A DNA stretch of 64,000 nt from Alphaproteobacteria bacterium MarineAlpha12_Bin1 (GTDB lineage Bacteria > Pseudomonadota > Alphaproteobacteria > UBA6615). Positions within the stretch are counted from its first letter, which is position 1; each line of letters opens with the position of its first letter. The position numbers and the translations under genes were made by a program. The notes below the pieces were generated by a model, which was not told the origin of the DNA, did not search any database, and saw nothing but the letters and a program-made list of their open reading frames with translations. Shown one piece after another: positions 31,495 through 45,629 of the stretch. The DNA lies in the NCBI GenBank assembly GCA_002937505.1, contig PTJY01000001.1, positions 1 to 64,000 on the forward strand. Reading direction: 5' to 3'.

Positions 31495-33831
31495 TTATTG
31501 ATAATTCAACCTTGCTTTATTTATAGCACTCCAAACACGCTCAGAGGTAACCGGCATTTCAATATTGGTAACCCCAATTGGAGCGAGTGCATCCAATATA
31601 GCATTCATAAGTGAGGGCATAGCTCCAACAGTGCCAGCCTCGCCTGCACCCTTTACCCCAAGAGGGTTACGAAAGGTAGGAACCTCATTACTTGATACAT
31701 CGATTGAAACAAAATTATCAGCACGAGGCATTGCGTAATCCATAAAAGACCCACTTAAGAGTTGACCACTGTCTTTGTCATAACAGACTTGTTCCATAAG
31801 AATCTGTCCTACCCCTTGGGCTATACCACCATGAATTTGACCCTTAACTATTGTTGGGTTGATCATTATACCAACATCATCAACAACCCAGTATCCGACT
31901 AAATCCACCACTCCAGTATCAGGATCAATCTCTACCTCAGATACATGGCTTCCATTAGGGTATGTAGAATCAGAAGGTAAAAAAGTTGAAGACTCATAGA
32001 GTCCTGGGTCAGTCCCCTCAGGCAACTTAGCAGGAATAAAAGAGGCCTTTGCTACTTCCTTTAGTGCAATTTCTTGATCAGTCCCAATTACAAAAAATTT
32101 CCCATTTGCAAACTCTATATCTGAAATACTGGCCTCTAAAAGGTTTGCTGCAATAATCTTAGCTTTATCTATTATTTTATCCGCCGCATAAAAAAGAGCA
32201 GAACCACCGACCACTGTGGAGCGTGATCCCATTGTGCCCATGCCAAAGGCCACTCTATCGGTATCACCATCTATAACTCTGACCTCTTCAGGAGCTAGGC
32301 CAAGCCTTTCTGAAATGATCTGTTTATAAATAGTCTCATGTCCCTGGCCCTGACTTTTAGTTCCCATGAGAACAGTTGCCGATCCATCTGTTGCAAATCT
32401 TATCTCAGAGAAATCAGGAATTGGAGAGGCTGCTTCTTCGATGGGATTTGCAATGCCTATACCCCTAAGTTTACCTCGAGTAGAAGCTTCTTCTTGTCTA
32501 TTGATAAACTCTTTATAATTGGCCATCTCTAGCACCTTTTCTTGATTCTCAAGAAACTGACCACAATCATAGTTTTGACCCAAAGCGGTATTTACAGGCA
32601 TATTTTCAGACGGAATAATATTTCGTCTTCTCAACTCAATCGGATCTATATTCAATTCTCTAGCAGCTTCATCTAACATGCGCTCGATTACATAAGTCGC
32701 CTCAGGGCGTCCTGCCCCTCTATACGGAGCAGTTGGATTGCTGTTCGAGTGAACTGTCCTGACCCTCACATATGCTGAAGGAACCTCATAAACCCCAATT
32801 AAACCACCCAGGCTCAGAGAAACTGCCAAAAGGTTCCTAATAGCTGAGAGATAAGCCCCTATATTTGCTATAGTATCAACTTTTAGCCCGGTAATTTTTC
32901 CGTCTGAATCAAAGGCCAATTCAGCTTCGGTTATATTATCTCTTCCATGTTCATCCGCTTGCACAGCCTCGCTACGTTCACAGGACCACTTAATGGGACG
33001 TCCTATTCTTTTCGATGCCCAGAGAACTAAACGGTGCTCTGCATATTGCCAGCCCTTAGTTCCAAAACCACCTCCGACATCTCTCGAAACAACACGAATA
33101 TCTTGCTCCGGAATAGAAAAGATTTTTTCTGCTAAAAGCTGACGCACTCTGTGTGGATATTGAACATCAGCGTATAGAGTGAATCTTTGTTCACTGGCAT
33201 CATAGACCCCAATTGCTCCACGAGGTTCCATATATTGAGCAAAGACACGAGATATTTTGAATTTTCGTTTAACAATATGCGAAGCTTTTTTGAAGGCTAA
33301 GCTTACAGAATCAAGATCACCCTTTTCAAATTGTCCTGAGACGTTATCAGGATAGTCGTCCCAAACTAAAGGAACACCGTCTAATATCGTTTGTTCAGTA
33401 TCAGTTATAGATGCCAGAGGATCATAGTCCACATCAATCAGCTCTGCTCCATCTTTAGCTTGATCAATGGTATCTGCAATGATTAATGCTACTGGATCTC
33501 CAACATATCTTACTCTTCCTAATGCTAATGGTGGCTGAGGTCGATATTTCATAGGTTGTCCATCGGGCCTAAGCCATTTAGCCGGCATGCCCGGCACACC
33601 TAATTTATCTTCTGCGATATCCTTTCCAGTGTATATTCCTATTACTCCCTTAGCTTTTAAAGCTTGAGATATGTCAATGGATTTAATTTCAGCATGCGCA
33701 TGAGGAGACCGCAAAATTATTGCATAGGCCTGGTTAGGAATATTTACATCATTAACAAACAAGCCCTTACCCTTTAAAAGCCTAGGATCTTCTTCTCTTC
33801 TTACACCTTGACCAACTCCAAATTTTTCCAT
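31495..33831 (-). CDS. Xanthine dehydrogenase-family molybdopterin-binding subunit (CoxL form II-like)
   Basis: 778 residues, the size of a molybdenum-hydroxylase large subunit. The N-terminal part has RREEDPRLLKGKGLFVNDV and SPHAHAEIKSIDIS. The active-site loop reads APYRGAGRPEA (about residues 365-375), which matches form II CoxL rather than the AYxCSFR of true CO dehydrogenase. The catalytic Glu is in GVKGAGEAGTVG (about 724-735). Such subunits hydroxylate heterocycles or aldehydes with Mo-cofactor. No FAD-binding or 2Fe-2S subunit gene is present in the window, so partners must be elsewhere. GGAGG precedes the ATG. Confidence 0.92.
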   Translation of the reverse strand: MEKFGVGQGVRREEDPRLLKGKGLFVNDVNIPNQAYAIILRSPHAHAEIKSIDISQALKAKGVIGIYTGKDIAEDKLGVPGMPAKWLRPDGQPMKYRPQPPLALGRVRYVGDPVALIIADTIDQAKDGAELIDVDYDPLASITDTEQTILDGVPLVWDDYPDNVSGQFEKGDLDSVSLAFKKASHIVKRKFKISRVFAQYMEPRGAIGVYDASEQRFTLYADVQYPHRVRQLLAEKIFSIPEQDIRVVSRDVGGGFGTKGWQYAEHRLVLWASKRIGRPIKWSCERSEAVQADEHGRDNITEAELAFDSDGKITGLKVDTIANIGAYLSAIRNLLAVSLSLGGLIGVYEVPSAYVRVRTVHSNSNPTAPYRGAGRPEATYVIERMLDEAARELNIDPIELRRRNIIPSENMPVNTALGQNYDCGQFLENQEKVLEMANYKEFINRQEEASTRGKLRGIGIANPIEEAASPIPDFSEIRFATDGSATVLMGTKSQGQGHETIYKQIISERLGLAPEEVRVIDGDTDRVAFGMGTMGSRSTVVGGSALFYAADKIIDKAKIIAANLLEASISDIEFANGKFFVIGTDQEIALKEVAKASFIPAKLPEGTDPGLYESSTFLPSDSTYPNGSHVSEVEIDPDTGVVDLVGYWVVDDVGIMINPTIVKGQIHGGIAQGVGQILMEQVCYDKDSGQLLSGSFMDYAMPRADNFVSIDVSSNEVPTFRNPLGVKGAGEAGTVGAMPSLMNAILDALAPIGVTNIEMPVTSERVWSAINKARLNYQ

Positions 33832-36063: not shown

Positions 36064-36603
36064 TTAAAGCTCCTCAGCATCAATTAACACAAATGCGATA
36101 CGGCAAGCCTTATCAGTCCTATTTGACCACGCATGATTTGTTCCCCTTTGTATGAGAACATCGCCAGCTCGCATCACAGTTTCACCAACATCCATCATTG
36201 CAACAATTTCTCCATCAAGAATGATGGCATAATCAACTGAGCGGGTCTTATGGAAGCCAGGGTGACGAGACCCTGCTCCAGCGGCATAGGCATCATCGCC
36301 CGCAACAGCGCTAGTATCAGGTGACTGATCAACATTATCCCCGAACCTGAGGGTGTCGGGCGGAATATCTACTATTCTAAAAACATTCCCTCTCTCAGGA
36401 GGCTGCAGTTTAATGGGTCTATCAGCCGCATCAAAATTACCTGAGTTATCTGCTGGCACAGAATCCACAGCCCATAGTTCTGTCCATGGATATCCATCGA
36501 TGCCTCCAGTATTTGTTACGTTCGGAGCATCTCTATCTTCTTGAATATAAGATTGACCTTCCGCATTATGCGCAGCTATCAACCTTCTAACCGGCTTAAG
36601 CAT
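36064..36603 (-). CDS. Cupin protein with GTNHAWSNR motif, copy 1
   Basis: 179 residues. The C-terminal half is a cupin: HPGFHKTRSVDYAIILDGEI, the second motif MRAGDVLIQRGTNHAWSNRT and RIAFVLIDAEEL. The N-terminal half, with VRRLIAAHNAEGQSYIQEDR, RIVDIPPD and similar, matches the product at 41688 residue for residue in places, so the two are paralogues. The role is unknown; such proteins are often found beside aromatic or sugar-acid catabolic genes. AAAGGAA lies upstream of the ATG. The sequence looks less AT-rich than its surroundings. Confidence 0.78.
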   Translation of the reverse strand: MLKPVRRLIAAHNAEGQSYIQEDRDAPNVTNTGGIDGYPWTELWAVDSVPADNSGNFDAADRPIKLQPPERGNVFRIVDIPPDTLRFGDNVDQSPDTSAVAGDDAYAAGAGSRHPGFHKTRSVDYAIILDGEIVAMMDVGETVMRAGDVLIQRGTNHAWSNRTDKACRIAFVLIDAEEL

Positions 36604-36893: not shown

Positions 36894-37949
36894 ATGACAA
36901 ATTACTCAATATGTGTCTTCCCTGGAGACGGAATTGGTTCTGAGGTAACAGAATGTTCACTTAAAGTCCTCACCTCATTACAAAAAATTGGAGGACCCTC
37001 TTTTACTTTTGAAACACACCCAGCTGGGCACGGTACATATCTCAAACAAGGACATGCAATGCCCGAAACAAGTATGACAAAGGCTAAAGAGGCAGATTCA
37101 GTTCTTGTGGGGGCTATGGACGTTGCACAAATACCACCAGGCGGTGGAGACCCTTTACGAGATTTACGTGTTGGACTAGAGGTTGGGGCAAGCGTACGAC
37201 CTTCTCGTACGATTCCAGGGATAGAAGCTCCTGTTAAAAAAATTGATTGCGTAATTGTTCGTGAAGTTACTGAAGGCCTCTATTCTCGTATTGAGTATAT
37301 GGTTAATGAAGATACAGCCTGCGCAGTTCGACTTATAACCCGCGGCGCTTCATCCAAAACAGCTAATATGGCATTCCAGCAGGCAATTGAAAGACAAAAT
37401 AGAGTAAATTCAGAACACAAAACCCCCAAAGTAACTGCCGTTCATAAAGTAGGAGCGCTAAAGCTTACTGATGGTCTCTTTCTTGAATCAGTCAAGGAAG
37501 TGTCCCTTAACTATCCTAATGTAGAATACGAAACTCGCAATATTGATGCGTGTGCACTAGAGATGATTAGAGAGCCAGAAACCTTTGATGTGATTTTATC
37601 CACTAATACGTTTGGAGACATTTTGTCGGATATTGCTGCCGGTCTTTCTGCAGGATTAGGCCTGGCTGCCTCTGGGTGTATTGGAGAAAAATGGGCATAC
37701 TTTGAGCCAGTTCACGGCACAGCACCGGACATAGCTGGAAAAGGAATCGCCAATCCATGTGCTTCAATTTTAAGCGCAGCAATGATGGTTAGACATTTAG
37801 GCGAAGCAAATTGTGCAGATGTTATTGAAAATGCCGTATATTCTGTAATAAACAAAGGCAACATCAGAACAGGTGATCTAGGTGGGAAAGCAACAAGCAA
37901 GCAGATGACAACTGAAATAATTGAAGAAATTACTAGAAAAACAAAATAA
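36894..37949 (+). CDS. Isocitrate/isopropylmalate dehydrogenase family protein
   Basis: 351 residues of the beta-decarboxylating dehydrogenase family: FPGDGIGSEVTE at the start, the substrate-loop LEVGASVRPSRTIPG, VREVTEGLYSRIEY, KVGALKLTDGLFLE, NTFGDILSDIAAGL and EPVHGTAPDIAGKGIANP. It oxidises a 2-hydroxy-3-carboxylate (or tartrate-like) substrate with NAD(P) and Mg. The set does not settle isocitrate, 3-isopropylmalate, homoisocitrate or tartrate. The absence of leuC/leuD nearby argues against the leucine pathway. AGGAAAAA lies before the ATG. It shares a bidirectional terminator with the acyl-CoA dehydrogenase gene. Confidence 0.88.
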   Translation: MTNYSICVFPGDGIGSEVTECSLKVLTSLQKIGGPSFTFETHPAGHGTYLKQGHAMPETSMTKAKEADSVLVGAMDVAQIPPGGGDPLRDLRVGLEVGASVRPSRTIPGIEAPVKKIDCVIVREVTEGLYSRIEYMVNEDTACAVRLITRGASSKTANMAFQQAIERQNRVNSEHKTPKVTAVHKVGALKLTDGLFLESVKEVSLNYPNVEYETRNIDACALEMIREPETFDVILSTNTFGDILSDIAAGLSAGLGLAASGCIGEKWAYFEPVHGTAPDIAGKGIANPCASILSAAMMVRHLGEANCADVIENAVYSVINKGNIRTGDLGGKATSKQMTTEIIEEITRKTK

Positions 37950-37987: not shown

Positions 37988-39172
37988 TTATCTGAGTATA
38001 CGACCAGCAACTTTTAATCGCTGAACTGAATCGCCGGCCAAGTGACTCCATATGAATGAATCCCTTACTAATTTATCAACTCCCCGATCCATAGGAGCTC
38101 CCGTGTTATCATAAATGTCCATGCAAAGCTCTGTAACTTCTTGAACAGTATCGGTTGACAGGTTCATAGCTAATCCAGCATTTGTAGAATGAATCCTCTC
38201 GTCATGCTCCCAAGCTACACGCATTACATACGATCGAAGAGCTTCAGTAAGCATCGACATTCTTCCGATTTTAAGTTGGACACTTTGTTGGTCTTTTAGT
38301 AATTCACCCCTGGAATCAAAGCTCCGCACTAAATGGATGGCCTTTTCACATGCAGAATCACAAATCCCTAATGCATTTGCAGCTAATTCTAAGTCACCAA
38401 ACATATCACCTGATGAATCTCCATCTCCTTTGTGAAGAGCACGATTAGTCTCTCCGATCTGATTACTAACAGGAACACGCGCATCTTCAAATATCATTTC
38501 ACCATTCTGATAGAACCGCCAACCACTCTTATTATAAACCTTACCTCTACTAAATCCCGGCGTATCATGCGGGACTAATAATAAAGTCGTACCATCAGTA
38601 AATGGAACTGAAAAATCAGTACGGACTAACAAAAAAAAGAGTTTTGCAACATTCCCATGCGCGATAAATTGTTTTTCTCCATTCAGAACCCAATGATCTC
38701 CATCCTTTTCAGCTCGTAATCTTACTCCCGAATTCAAATTATCTGGCGGAGGCATGCGATTGTCTGAACCGCTGTTAGCTTCTGTTTGGCCCGATCCTAA
38801 AACAAAAGTATGATCCTCAAGAAAAGGCTTGAGAAAGCGCTCTTTTTGCTCTTCTGTACAAGCTGCTGCTATTAAATGGCTCCATTTCCAACATTGACTA
38901 AATGTTTTTGACATTGCGCTATCGGCTTTAGCCAGCTCCGACATGATTATTGCTTGGGTAACATAATCAACTCCATGGCCACCCTGTTCTTTAGCTACCA
39001 CTGCAGTCCGAAACCCCAGTTTAGACCCTTTAGTTATTAGATCCCAATCTATCGTCCCGCCCGGATCAACAATTTGATCTCTTTCTAACGAAATCGGCTT
39101 GATTTCTTCTTCAGCAAACTTTCTTGCTTTTTTTTGCCAGGATTTCTGTTCTTCCGTTAATGAAAAATCCAT
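37988..39172 (-). CDS. Acyl-CoA dehydrogenase family protein, first of a tandem pair
   Basis: 394 residues with the three-domain ACAD layout: N-terminal helices (MDFSLTEEQKSWQKKARKFA), the FAD/substrate strand region GSGQTEANSGSDN and WVLNGEKQFIAHGN, and C-terminal helices. Typical members oxidise acyl-CoAs to enoyl-CoAs, feeding electrons to ETF. At the usual YEGTxExQ position the sequence is HLAGDSVQRL (about residues 375-384), so the catalytic Glu is not there. Catalysis may come from elsewhere or from the neighbouring paralogue. Good ribosome-binding site (AAGAGGAAG). It starts 54 bases after the second ACAD gene ends, so both are one operon. Confidence 0.87.
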   Translation of the reverse strand: MDFSLTEEQKSWQKKARKFAEEEIKPISLERDQIVDPGGTIDWDLITKGSKLGFRTAVVAKEQGGHGVDYVTQAIIMSELAKADSAMSKTFSQCWKWSHLIAAACTEEQKERFLKPFLEDHTFVLGSGQTEANSGSDNRMPPPDNLNSGVRLRAEKDGDHWVLNGEKQFIAHGNVAKLFFLLVRTDFSVPFTDGTTLLLVPHDTPGFSRGKVYNKSGWRFYQNGEMIFEDARVPVSNQIGETNRALHKGDGDSSGDMFGDLELAANALGICDSACEKAIHLVRSFDSRGELLKDQQSVQLKIGRMSMLTEALRSYVMRVAWEHDERIHSTNAGLAMNLSTDTVQEVTELCMDIYDNTGAPMDRGVDKLVRDSFIWSHLAGDSVQRLKVAGRILR

Positions 39173-39226
39173 GTTTACTTCCTCTTATTTAGACTGGTCC
39201 CAAAGAATAATTAATCTAAAACCTCG

Positions 39227-40417
39227 TTAGCCATTTTGAAAGTCAGCTATCAGTTCAGCAATTTTGAGCCTTGAGTCTGCATTACCATTACCTGTGTGTA
39301 AAAACATTCTGGTTTGATGAATATATTTTTGCATAGGCATATCACGCATCACACCCATTGCGCCAAAGCATTCAGCAGAATCTTTTGCTGCTCGGTAGAG
39401 CATTTCAGAGGAAGATACATGGGCTATGGTATTGATCGGTAAACTAACACCACTGTAAGCCATTGCTTTATCAGGGTTATCTAAATACCAGGCTGCTCTC
39501 CAAATAGTTCCTCTTGCCACCTCAAGACTTATTGCAATTTCTGCTAACTTTTCTCCTATGGCTTGATGCTCTATTATTGGCCGACCGCCCTGTATCCTTA
39601 GCTTCGCATACTCAACTGCAGCATCAAACGCCGCCCTAGCAATTCCTAGGTTTAACGCGTTAGAAATCGGGCTATGCTCTGAAAACTCAAAAGAACCTGA
39701 ACTTAATCTATTTTCTTCGGAAACGAAACAATCCTCGAAAAGGACGTCCCCACAAGACCCCAAATACCAACCCCCATCACGATCAACCTCTACAATTTTT
39801 AATCCTGGTTGATCATTAGAAATTAAAAAGAATGATGAGCCAGAATCAGTTTGGGCTTCAATCGCAAAAAGCTTTGCAATTGGCGCATTAGAAACACGAG
39901 AGCAAATACCATTTAATAACCAACCACCCCCTTCTGTAGCTTTTGCTTCTAAAGCATTATTGGGGGTTTTTTCCTTTTGCCTATGATATCTAATACCAAT
40001 AGCAGAATGATTCTCCATCCTGCTAGGAGCTAAAGCTAGATGAAAATCATTATTCTCCAAAAATTTAGGTAATATTAGATTCTTTTGTTCCGAAGTCATG
40101 GCACGATCAAACAAGGGACCAGCAAGCTCTGAAGTTTCAGACAAAACTGCAGCAACGTCTGCGTCACCAGCTGCAAGCTCTTCAGCTACAATGCATTGAG
40201 TTAAACTATCTGAACTCGCTCCTCCAGACTCTTCCGATAAGGATAAACTTCTCAAACCGAGCTCAGCAGCTTTCTCTATCTGCTCTGTTGGCAGAGGAGG
40301 GTCAAAAGGCTCTAACCTCTTAGGCAGCAAGGCTACTGGCGTAATTTCATTAGCCACAAAGTCTCTTACTGTGTCACGGATTGCGAGTTGTTCCTCGCTA
40401 AGTTGCAAATCGTACAT
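39227..40417 (-). CDS. Acyl-CoA dehydrogenase family protein, second of a tandem pair
   Basis: 396 residues with ACAD-type start MYDLQLSEEQLAIRDTVRDF and a C-terminal helical domain (ALNLGIARAAFDAAVEYAKL, GAMGVMRDMPMQKYIHQTR). The expected catalytic-Glu segment is replaced by FLHTGNGNADSRL (about 372-384). The middle domain is poorly conserved, with RMENHSAIGIRYHRQKEKT where the FAD-binding strand is expected. It could be a structural partner of the other ACAD, as in heteromeric steroid-catabolic dehydrogenases, but that is inference. The start is the ATG, not a TTG 39 bases upstream. Confidence 0.82.
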   Translation of the reverse strand: MYDLQLSEEQLAIRDTVRDFVANEITPVALLPKRLEPFDPPLPTEQIEKAAELGLRSLSLSEESGGASSDSLTQCIVAEELAAGDADVAAVLSETSELAGPLFDRAMTSEQKNLILPKFLENNDFHLALAPSRMENHSAIGIRYHRQKEKTPNNALEAKATEGGGWLLNGICSRVSNAPIAKLFAIEAQTDSGSSFFLISNDQPGLKIVEVDRDGGWYLGSCGDVLFEDCFVSEENRLSSGSFEFSEHSPISNALNLGIARAAFDAAVEYAKLRIQGGRPIIEHQAIGEKLAEIAISLEVARGTIWRAAWYLDNPDKAMAYSGVSLPINTIAHVSSSEMLYRAAKDSAECFGAMGVMRDMPMQKYIHQTRMFLHTGNGNADSRLKIAELIADFQNG

Positions 40418-41501: not shown

Positions 41502-41687
41502 AAATATATCCTAGATATTTTTTATTTAAAAGCAGACAAAAGTTTAAAGCTAGGCCTGCGCTTATGGTATGATTGTCTAAACTAAACAGGTTATAACAAT
41601 ATATTGAAAGAAAAAGAAACATAAGCTTAACGTAATTTAAACATTAACTAATTTTATCATATAAATTTGAAAACATTGGAGGTCTTT

Positions 41688-42266
41688 ATGTCAGGTCAAA
41701 TTCGACGTGTAGTTACAGGCCATAATCACAAAGGGGAGGCCACAGTCTTAATGGATGGCCCTGCACCTTTTGTTCATGTTAATCCTCGTAATCCGGATGA
41801 TACCTCTACTGATATTTGGAGAACCTCCGCTACGCCAGCCCAAATTCTTTCGGAACTCGGAGAAACCACACTGGGCCCAAGAAGACAAATGCCAGATTCT
41901 AAGGGGACTGTTATTAGAATTAATAGATTCGCCCCTGAAACTGACCAGGTCCGCAATATGAGCATGAAAGAAGCCAGGCTGGCTTTTAAAGCCTTAGGAA
42001 ATGAGCCTGCTTCGACCTTTGGAAGAGGTGGACATCACCCACTCATGCACCGAACCGAAACGATCGACTATGCCATTATTTTATCAGGAGAAATTACAAT
42101 GGTATTAGATGATCAAGAAGTTCATTTAAAATCTGGTGATACTGTTGTTCAATGCGGAACCAACCATGCCTGGAGCAATAGATCAAATGAAGTCTGCGAG
42201 GTGCTTTTTGTACTAATAGATGGCAAGTTTGATTCGGATCTTGAAAACAGGTTTTCTAATTCTTAA
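41688..42266 (+). CDS. Cupin protein with GTNHAWSNR motif, copy 2
   Basis: 192 residues, paralogue of the protein at 36064-36603. Shared segments: IRRVVTGHNHKGEATVLMDG at the start, RTETIDYAIILSGEITMVLD, SGDTVVQCGTNHAWSNRSNE, and CEVLFVLIDGKF. The cupin second motif His is in GTNHAWSN. No signal peptide. TTGGAGGTC is a strong ribosome-binding site, which sets the start. Divergent from the EamA transporter. The function of this cupin group is not established here; an acid-isomerase or regulatory role is possible. Confidence 0.8.
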   Translation: MSGQIRRVVTGHNHKGEATVLMDGPAPFVHVNPRNPDDTSTDIWRTSATPAQILSELGETTLGPRRQMPDSKGTVIRINRFAPETDQVRNMSMKEARLAFKALGNEPASTFGRGGHHPLMHRTETIDYAIILSGEITMVLDDQEVHLKSGDTVVQCGTNHAWSNRSNEVCEVLFVLIDGKFDSDLENRFSNS

Positions 42267-44107: not shown

Positions 44108-44629
44108 ATGGATTTACTTCAACATATCAGAACTATAAAAGATCACCCTGAACCGGGGATCCTTTTCTATGACATTTCAACTTTACTAGGCCATCCTAAA
44201 GCTTGGAAACACACAATTAGTACCCTGGCTAAAAAAATAAAAAAATATGACATAAATAAAATCATAGGCATCGAAAGTAGGGGATTTTTAGTTGCGTCTC
44301 CACTGGCCATTGAGCTTGAACTCCCTCTTGTTATGGTTCGCAAAAAGGGAAAGTTACCTGGCTCAACAGTCTCTCAGAACTACGATCTTGAATATGGTTT
44401 TGATATTTTGGAGATGCAAACTGACGCAGTGTCAAAAGGCGACAGTGTAATAGTTGTCGATGATGTTTTGGCTACAGGCGGCACAGCTGTTGCTACTACA
44501 AAATTATTGCGTAGGATGGGTGCAAATGTCATTTGTGCAGCATTCATAATCGAATTGAGTGATCTTGGAGGTCGAGATAGATTAGGTTTACCATTTATTT
44601 CATTGCTAAATATAGAGACAGATCTCTAA
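44108..44629 (+). CDS. apt: Adenine phosphoribosyltransferase
   Basis: Salvages adenine to AMP with PRPP. 173 residues, the standard Apt size. The start MDLLQHIRTIKDHPEPGILF and DISTLLGHP are family hallmarks, as are GIESRGFLVASPLA and the PRPP loop VIVVDDVLATGGTAVATT (about 116-133). The stop overlaps the end of the convergent DenD-like gene by four bases. The ribosome-binding site is weak. The identification is strong. Confidence 0.95.
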   Translation: MDLLQHIRTIKDHPEPGILFYDISTLLGHPKAWKHTISTLAKKIKKYDINKIIGIESRGFLVASPLAIELELPLVMVRKKGKLPGSTVSQNYDLEYGFDILEMQTDAVSKGDSVIVVDDVLATGGTAVATTKLLRRMGANVICAAFIIELSDLGGRDRLGLPFISLLNIETDL

Positions 44630-45612
44630 GAAATAATATTTCCATCCAGCTCATCTTCTATGAAACTACGGACAACCTCTTCAATAGACTCATCTGCTTC
44701 AAAACCTAGTTCTCTGCCAATTATACCGTTAGCAAACCAAGGCCAACTATCTACCATACGCTGAATTTCGCTGTCGGGTTTCCATAAAATACGATCAGCT
44801 ATCTTTGCACCAGCAATATCCTTAAGAGCTAACACCATCTCACCAATAGAAGGCGAAATACCGTTCATCATCACCCCTCTTCTAAACCCTAAATGATCAG
44901 ATTCTGCGTTATGGACATCTATAAAAGCTTGAACTGCTCGTCTGGGAGATAAAATTAACATTCGTGTTTCAGGGCTAACAGGACAAATAGCCTCAGATCC
45001 TTGCAACGGTTCTCGGAGTATAGAACTGGCAAAACCTGACGCAGCCCTATTTGGTTTACCAGGTCTGACAACTATTGTCGGCAACCTCAGACTTCGCCCG
45101 TCAAAAAACCCCTTTCGAGTGTAGTCGTTTAACATGATCTCACCAATTGCTTTCTGAGCACCATAAGAGCTTTGAGGCAATAGTGGGGTATCGTCAACTA
45201 TTTCGCGAAAACCCCCATAAACAGCCAATGAACTTGTGAATATAACACGAGGGGTCGCATCAACTTTTTTGCATGCTTCAAAAAGGTTTCTTGTTCCATC
45301 CAAATTCACATTATAGCCCAAATCAAAATCTTCTTCAGCGCCACCACTTACCACTGCAGCAAAATGAAAAATTGAATCTATATTATCATCAATCAGTTTA
45401 TCTAAAACTTTGGTGTCACATATGTCTTCCCTAATAGTTTCAACTCTCGGGTCGGCAGGCATCGGTTCTACTGGTTCATAAGCATCGACAAGAATCAACC
45501 GATCTATCGGCTCTTTATCTCCAGAGCGCCCAACTAACTCGCTGTTAGCTAAAAGCCTTAACGCCAAGCGCCGGCCTAACATTCCAGTACCTCCAGTTAT
45601 AATAACTTTCAT
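44626..45612 (-). CDS. NAD-dependent epimerase/dehydratase family protein, D-erythronate dehydrogenase-like
   Basis: 328 residues of the extended-SDR class. Start MKVIITGGTGMLGRRLALRL with the TGGTGMLG cofactor loop, FTSSLAVYGG (catalytic Ser), SYGAQKAIGE (the YxxxK pair; about 145-154), then VVRPGKPNRAASGFASSILR, which closely resembles DenD, D-erythronate dehydrogenase. The start is the ATG after GAGGAAAATA, not a TTG 12 bases upstream. It is translated toward apt and follows the aminotransferase gene by 17 bases, so the two are probably one operon. DenD assignment is plausible but unproven. Confidence 0.82.
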   Translation of the reverse strand: MKVIITGGTGMLGRRLALRLLANSELVGRSGDKEPIDRLILVDAYEPVEPMPADPRVETIREDICDTKVLDKLIDDNIDSIFHFAAVVSGGAEEDFDLGYNVNLDGTRNLFEACKKVDATPRVIFTSSLAVYGGFREIVDDTPLLPQSSYGAQKAIGEIMLNDYTRKGFFDGRSLRLPTIVVRPGKPNRAASGFASSILREPLQGSEAICPVSPETRMLILSPRRAVQAFIDVHNAESDHLGFRRGVMMNGISPSIGEMVLALKDIAGAKIADRILWKPDSEIQRMVDSWPWFANGIIGRELGFEADESIEEVVRSFIEDELDGNIIS

Positions 45613-45629
45613 TATTTTCCTCAAAAAAA

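Follow-up and report, generated by a model that had tools for sequence, protein, structure and literature searches.

A conserved tandem pair of acyl-CoA dehydrogenase-like proteins without a glutamate at either known catalytic-base position

Two adjacent genes of Alphaproteobacteria bacterium MarineAlpha12_Bin1, here designated ACAD-A and ACAD-B, encode a real, conserved, apparently uncharacterised and probably heteromeric enzyme of the acyl-CoA dehydrogenase (ACAD) type, for which we infer the complex, the division of labour, the base and the substrate class from the observed sequences, their conservation, the complementary motifs in the window, selection in relatives and synteny. What is unusual about the pair is that neither partner has the catalytic base at either of the known sites. 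The reading we prefer, to which we give roughly even chances, is an obligate A:B heteromeric flavoenzyme in which ACAD-A is catalytic, with Glu262 as the base, and ACAD-B is an FAD-holding partner.

In the heteromeric ACADs acting on steroids, the alpha subunit binds the isoalloxazine ring and holds the glutamate and the beta subunit contacts the ADP-ribose part of FAD, according to passages of PMC11153573, and parts of PMC8399759 describe a similar subunit split. The base positions of MCAD, isovaleryl-CoA dehydrogenase (IVD) and long-chain acyl-CoA dehydrogenase (LCAD) used below were likewise taken from portions of PMC11153573.

The gene pair and its products

The window, i.e., the whole stretch of 64,000 nucleotides that was analysed (contig PTJY01000001.1, positions 1 to 64,000), contains the two genes at the following places:

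37988..39172, minus strand: ACAD-A, 394 amino acids, proposed catalytic (alpha-like) subunit
39227..40417, minus strand: ACAD-B, 396 amino acids from a conserved ATG, proposed non-catalytic (beta-like) subunit

An earlier note on this DNA had described two tandem, co-directional ACAD genes 54 bases apart, and both open reading frames were indeed found at that place and on that strand, with 54 nt between the stop codon of ACAD-B and the ATG of ACAD-A. The ATG at 40417 is the likely start of ACAD-B because the methionine it encodes, which is residue 14 of a longer frame beginning with TTG (the source of the 409-residue numbering used for this protein), is shared by 97% or more of B-family members. 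The sequence 'agagga' lies 7 nt 5' of the ATG of ACAD-A. In ACAD-A, the N-terminal, middle and C-terminal ACAD domains all score above the Pfam cut-off; in ACAD-B, the N- and C-terminal domains do so and the middle domain stays below it (26.1 versus 33.3 bits). The AF2 models, folded as single chains, are complete ACAD folds that match other ACADs over their full length. That of ACAD-A (pLDDT 89), computed from an alignment of 56 A sequences (the window copy and 55 of the other 83) and nine ACADs of the same genome, is closest to human MCAD (Z 48.1, rmsd 1.7, 371 residues aligned), and that of ACAD-B (pLDDT 86.9), computed from 37 of 47 B sequences, gave a best Z of 40.4 (rmsd 3.0, 365 residues aligned).

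Relatives, distribution and phylogeny

A scan of a genome collection yielded 136 loci with relatives of ACAD-A, the best 80 of which (56-86% identical) were analysed; by record title they belong to Alphaproteobacteria, Betaproteobacteria, Nitrospinota and a few other groups. Together with the window, these 80 of 136 loci provided 84 A and 47 B sequences, after seven matches that were neither A-like (>280 bits) nor B-like (>200 bits) had been dropped before counting; these seven included a fragment of the A protein of locus L032. A gene for B is present in the fetched stretch of 46 of the best 80 of 136 loci, in Alpha- and Betaproteobacteria, and lies at most 150 nt from A in 38 of these 80. 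In the remaining 34 of the 80, among them the Nitrospinota loci, the fetched stretch contains A but no B; when only the 69 loci (among the best 80 of 136) with more than 1250 nt upstream of A are considered, B is absent in 29. Several members of the family (L054, L075, L079, L082, L085, L091, L092, L094) stand in records titled as Bordetella parapertussis metagenome bins, titles that look like wrong bin labels for other betaproteobacteria.

The A family is patchy. At E 1e-120, a match was found in eight of 60 related genomes, and in a class-wide sample searched at 1e-60, five of 385 genomes matched (the genome itself included in both counts), with 13 sequences, three of which are A proper and ten more distant ACADs at 31-36% identity. 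With a profile of B at 1e-100, the genome itself was the sole match among 299 in a phylum sample, and plasmid records gave no match at E 1e-60. In a tree of 48 sequences, which included no ChsE, Scd or other characterised heteromeric ACAD, A, B, the ACADs L003 and L005 of the same genome and other 'HSDGTN' ACADs form one clade with a support of 100/100; the tree does not show A and B as sisters, and long branches among other sequences of the same genome advise caution about its deep forks.

The 'HSDGTN' ACADs (L002-L004 and L112-L118) are the next nearest relatives found, sharing 31-36% identity with A and falling into the same clade as A and B. In this wider group, an aspartate in a conserved HSDGTN or HSDGVN loop replaces YEGT, and unlike ACAD-A, these proteins thus have an aspartate at the usual glutamate position. 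The genome itself carries three such copies (L002, L003 and L004, on contigs C5 and C6). It also encodes a B-like ACAD (L107:6782-7993, contig C11; 35% identical to B, profile E 2e-104) that has the loop KHISF, lacks the glutamate and adjoins a gene homologous to that of the TAXI receptor in the window.

The usual positions of the catalytic glutamate

Three features define the known base sites in the pair; the placement of Ala379 and Gly259 of A and Gly389 of B on the catalytic-glutamate columns comes from alignments to solved ACADs:

38018..38044, minus strand: loop J/K motif HLAG-DSVQR of ACAD-A, with Ala379 at the position of MCAD Glu376, one residue shorter than YEGTxxxQR
38396..38398, minus strand: codon of Gly259 of ACAD-A, the IVD/LCAD catalytic-glutamate position, opposite the E of 'YER' in the alignment with 4kto
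39281..39298, minus strand: loop J/K HTGNGN of ACAD-B, with Gly389 (409-residue numbering) at the position of MCAD Glu376 by alignment

The earlier note had claimed that both proteins lack a glutamate at the YEGTxExQ position and, by eye, at the helix-G position of IVD, and the family alignments bear out both statements. At the first position, occupied by Ala379 in ACAD-A and Gly389 in ACAD-B, glutamate occurs in none of the 84 A sequences (Ala in 81, Gly in two, a gap in one) and in none of the 47 B sequences, one of which (L079) has Asp. At the second, occupied by Gly259 and His261, respectively, it is equally missing from all 84 A (76 Gly, six Ser, two Asn) and all 47 B sequences, one of these having Asp (L032, a truncated frame); the same column holds E in the IVD-like ACAD L007 of the genome. 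As a control served the other ACADs of the genome, 15 sequences that include two duplicate fragments and are therefore counted as 13 distinct proteins: seven have a glutamate at one of the two sites, three have the loop aspartate and three have neither, namely L005 and both frames of L011, the latter so divergent that their alignment is unsure. Judged by these alignments, the absence of both base sites appears unusual, yet not unique to ACAD-A and ACAD-B. The two frames of L011 (170-1306 and 1342-2535, contig C1, about 408.5-410.8 kb) form a second, very divergent tandem ACAD pair, 35 nt apart, with no glutamate at either base site in this alignment and with the loops IYGGSSEIQK and ALFG-DAD.

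The further claim that both proteins are non-canonical holds insofar as neither subunit has a base at either documented site; it does not describe the two equally well, since ACAD-A looks like a conserved working enzyme and ACAD-B like a helper.

Glu262 and other candidate bases

The most promising acidic residue of ACAD-A lies on helix G (residues 256-284 of the AF2 model):

38387..38389, minus strand: codon of Glu262 of ACAD-A in helix G, candidate base, three residues beyond the IVD position

Glu262 is invariant in the 84 A sequences, and its column aligns to Val in 4kto, to Gly in 4n5f and to Val, Gly, Gln, Asn, Ala, Thr, Tyr or Arg in the ACADs of the genome. It is part of a stripe, F258, E262, N266 and G269, each member of which occurs in 84 of 84 A sequences. 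Invariance alone is a weak argument for Glu262, because about 26% of all positions of A (101 of 394 in the 84 sequences) are at least 97% conserved and because G269 is general to ACADs, being invariant in B and present in nearly all ACADs of the genome; nor is the glutamate exclusive to A, as four of 47 B sequences have it too. A simple swap, in which the loop acid was lost and the helix glutamate gained, was rejected because the outgroup proteins L112 and L114 carry both Glu262 and the aspartate at the loop position.

In methylsuccinyl-CoA dehydrogenase, the helix-G residues Thr418 and Arg421 are part of the pocket, as stated in a part of PMC5798300. Mapped via L013 and the family alignment, they correspond to Leu263 and Asn266 of ACAD-A. 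On an ideal helix, residues 259, 263 and 266 share one face, and residue 262 is turned about 65 to 70 degrees to the side, at the edge of that face. ACAD-A and methylsuccinyl-CoA dehydrogenase would have in common that functional residues line this face of helix G, and for ACAD-A, too, a short polar substrate is suspected; they differ in that methylsuccinyl-CoA dehydrogenase keeps the loop residue Glu535 and Arg421, for which ACAD-A has Asn266. With IVD and LCAD, ACAD-A shares a candidate base on helix G and a small residue at the loop position, but its glutamate is placed three residues further along the helix, and Gly, Ser or Asn occupies the IVD position.

Glu262 was ranked first because, with Gly259 and Ala379, no acid stands at either usual position, because it is invariant and because, on ideal-helix geometry, it would lie near the pocket face; on sequence grounds it is the best candidate for the base, ahead of Asp381. 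The latter is located two residues past the usual glutamate in the J/K loop, which is one residue shorter, and if it were the base, ACAD-A would be a normal ACAD whose loop acid has shifted. We regard this as improbable: Asp occupies the position in 80 of the 83 A sequences that have a letter there, and Asp fills the Glu376 column in the 'HSDGTN' ACADs of the genome, but Ser or Asn is found in the other three of the 83, and the alignment places Asp381 beyond the usual site. A relocated base, Glu262 of ACAD-A, is a possible explanation of the motif loss, and so is a different reaction of the two proteins.

Complementary motifs of the FAD site

The motifs associated with the FAD site are distributed between the two proteins as follows:

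38756..38770, minus strand: GSDNR of ACAD-A, retained middle-domain motif; S136, D137 and R139 in 84 of 84 A sequences, mostly other residues in B
38870..38911, minus strand: helix-E pocket motif S-K-T-F-S-Q-C-W-K-W-S-H-L-I of ACAD-A
38285..38329, minus strand: cross-interface FAD loop of ACAD-A, degenerate in the window copy (Phe285 replaces the usual Arg)
39563..39598, minus strand: cross-interface FAD loop RIQGGRPIIEHQ of ACAD-B, intact; R285, Q287, G288 and H295 (A-numbered columns) each in 47 of 47 B sequences
39353..39367, minus strand: second FAD loop FGAMG of ACAD-B; F, G and A each in 47 of 47
39980..40030, minus strand: stretch of ACAD-B where TEP..GSD is expected, motif lost (columns 130-137)

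From what is known of MCAD, we take these loop columns to bind FAD across the subunit interface. The second G of the ACAD-B cross-interface loop is kept in 44 of 47 sequences. ACAD-A retains in addition E131 (84 of 84) and, in helix E, K89, Q93, W95, K96 and W97, each found in 83 of 84 sequences with a gap in the remaining one; in the model of ACAD-B, residues 136-139 have a pLDDT below 50. Within a single FAD site, the window's A and B thus appear to be missing different parts, and a shared site, with A on the isoalloxazine side and B on the ADP side, fits the motif pattern of this pair and, loosely, that of the family. The arginine of the FAD loop is present in 12 of the 13 distinct other ACADs of the genome and in all 47 B sequences. 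Among A sequences, it occurs in 12 of the 49 whose locus includes B and in 18 of the 35 whose locus does not (Fisher p 0.02, with relatedness ignored), so that its loss in A and the pairing with B seem only loosely linked.

These counts bear on another explanation, that A and B are two independent homo-oligomers which share an operon. The fact that A stands without B in the 34 unpaired loci mentioned above, and that the unpaired Nitrospinota proteins L058, L067, L069 and L083 keep the FAD loop motif, speaks for it; each of the window proteins, however, lacks a part of the FAD site, and a different part, and we consider independent oligomers very unlikely.

Conservation and selection

ACAD-A is more conserved than ACAD-B in 986 of 990 pairs from 45 loci. 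In three close pairs of relatives, dN/dS was 0.12, 0.12 and 0.06 for A and 0.31, 0.20 and 0.10 for B, i.e., 1.7- to 2.6-fold lower in A; a comparison of the window with its nearest relative yielded no ratio, owing to saturation at synonymous sites. A slower A and a faster B are what would be expected of a catalytic subunit and its non-catalytic partner. The earlier note had drawn an analogy to heteromeric ACADs with one inactive subunit, and this analogy is strengthened both by the faster evolution of B and by the different FAD-binding parts missing from the two window proteins.

Frameshift or decay of the two genes was rejected, as the frames are intact and dN/dS in relatives is low. That neither protein is an enzyme and both are regulatory or structural remnants might be suggested by the lack of glutamate at the known base sites of either, but with active-site motifs rigidly conserved across phyla and such low dN/dS values, this idea is hardly tenable.

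Neighbouring genes and the type of reaction

Immediately beside ACAD-A lies a gene that recurs in the family:

36894..37949, plus strand: isopropylmalate/isocitrate-dehydrogenase-family gene (Iso_dh, PF00180), tail-to-tail with ACAD-A

The closest solved relative of its product is homoisocitrate dehydrogenase. In 33 of the best 80 of 136 loci (30 of the 56 with adequate flanks), from Alphaproteobacteria, Betaproteobacteria and Nitrospinota, an Iso_dh gene and A lie no more than 3 kb apart; in L058, L067, L070 and L071 it follows A at 17 nt. Scores against the window copy form two groups, 406-568 and 105-197 bits. A cluster of TctC-type receptors is present in 42 of the best 80 of 136 loci, and further recurring clusters, named by Pfam from one or two representatives each and resting on gene calls that are partly wrong, are MmgE/PrpD, enoyl-CoA hydratase, CoA-transferase III, succinyl-CoA-ligase-like proteins, SDR, AtuA and TauD (single representatives for these). 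This neighbourhood suggests the catabolism of small carboxylates, perhaps partly via CoA thioesters. No steroid-specific gene was recognised by Pfam or NCBIfam among the 18 distinct neighbouring proteins of the window; the NAD-epimerase at 44629-45624 has a secondary match to 3Beta_HSD (55.8 bits, versus 94.0 for Epimerase).

In L058, L067, L069 and L071, A is located between a luciferase-like monooxygenase and Iso_dh, and further downstream come a thiamine-diphosphate enzyme and an SDR (by clustering, with Pfam names from one representative each). In the window, two paralogous small cupins (36064-36603 and 41667-42266), both kept in a sister genome (L108), flank the block of ACAD and Iso_dh genes. 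A CoxL-like large subunit of a molybdenum hydroxylase, which scores below the NCBIfam cut-offs listed, is encoded at 31495-33831, and no small or medium subunit of this enzyme was present among the 18 neighbours scanned.

The neighbours also enter into a further possibility, in which A and B do form a heteromer but the reaction needs no Glu or Asp base: either a leaving group would be lost, as by sulfinopropionyl-CoA desulfinase, or flavin chemistry would act on a non-CoA substrate, and Glu262 would serve to bind a polar substrate group. The small residues at both base sites of the A sequences, the conserved charged residues K89, K96, R139 and R219 of A, which probably lie in the pocket, and the recurrence of neighbours of the small-carboxylate type (Iso_dh, TctC receptors and, in some loci, a luciferase-like monooxygenase) are in keeping with such a reaction. 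Against it, the NCBIfam model of 3-sulfinopropionyl-CoA desulfinase gave 91.7 bits for A and 87.6 for B at a cut-off of 600, and none of the neighbours scanned hints at sulfur chemistry; we think a base-free reaction somewhat unlikely.

Comparison with heteromeric ACADs and proposed mechanism

With the steroid alpha2beta2 ACADs ChsE4-ChsE5, ChsE1-ChsE2 and Scd1AB, the pair shares two adjacent, divergent ACAD genes and, judged by motifs and by those parts of the literature cited above, it may resemble them in having one subunit that holds the flavin ring and active site and another that holds the ADP part of FAD. The steroid enzymes keep the catalytic glutamate in one subunit, whereas neither ACAD-A nor ACAD-B has it at the known sites. 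An assignment to steroid ACADs was rejected, as no curated model passed its cut-off; for all 18 such models listed, the score of ACAD-A fell far short of the threshold. Chains of ChsE or other heteromers were absent from the 50 structure matches listed for either protein, which does not argue against a relationship, and 4x28, not named as a heteromer in the match table, matched ACAD-B in a sequence search. In the open-access literature searched, no description of a pair with both subunits lacking the base was found.

For the preferred heteromer with Glu262 as base, the following mechanism may be proposed. ACAD-A would contribute the pockets for the isoalloxazine ring and the substrate together with the catalytic residues, and ACAD-B, which would have no active site of its own, would reach over the interface with its loops and bind the ADP end of that FAD. 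ACAD-A would oxidise a short, polar, probably carboxylated acyl substrate, and Glu262, placed one helical turn past the IVD/LCAD base in helix G, would abstract the proton; the small residues Gly259 and Ala379 at the usual base positions may leave room for it. Electrons would then pass to ETF, which is encoded in the genome.

The chemistry of ACADs is understood around one carboxylate that is naturally placed in two ways, and the conserved subfamily described here has neither placement. It is possible, if on the whole doubtful, that in this pair the catalytic acid occupies a third place within the ACAD fold, on helix G one turn past the IVD/LCAD site, and that the pair combines this with a dedicated FAD-holding pseudoenzyme partner and a small, carboxylate-derived rather than fatty acyl or steroid substrate. 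The apparent division between a catalytic subunit and one that holds the cofactor narrows direct tests of the mechanism to a few residues, i.e., Glu262, Asp381 and Lys89 of A and the FAD loop of B, and for this family the annotation 'acyl-CoA dehydrogenase' tells little about the reaction.
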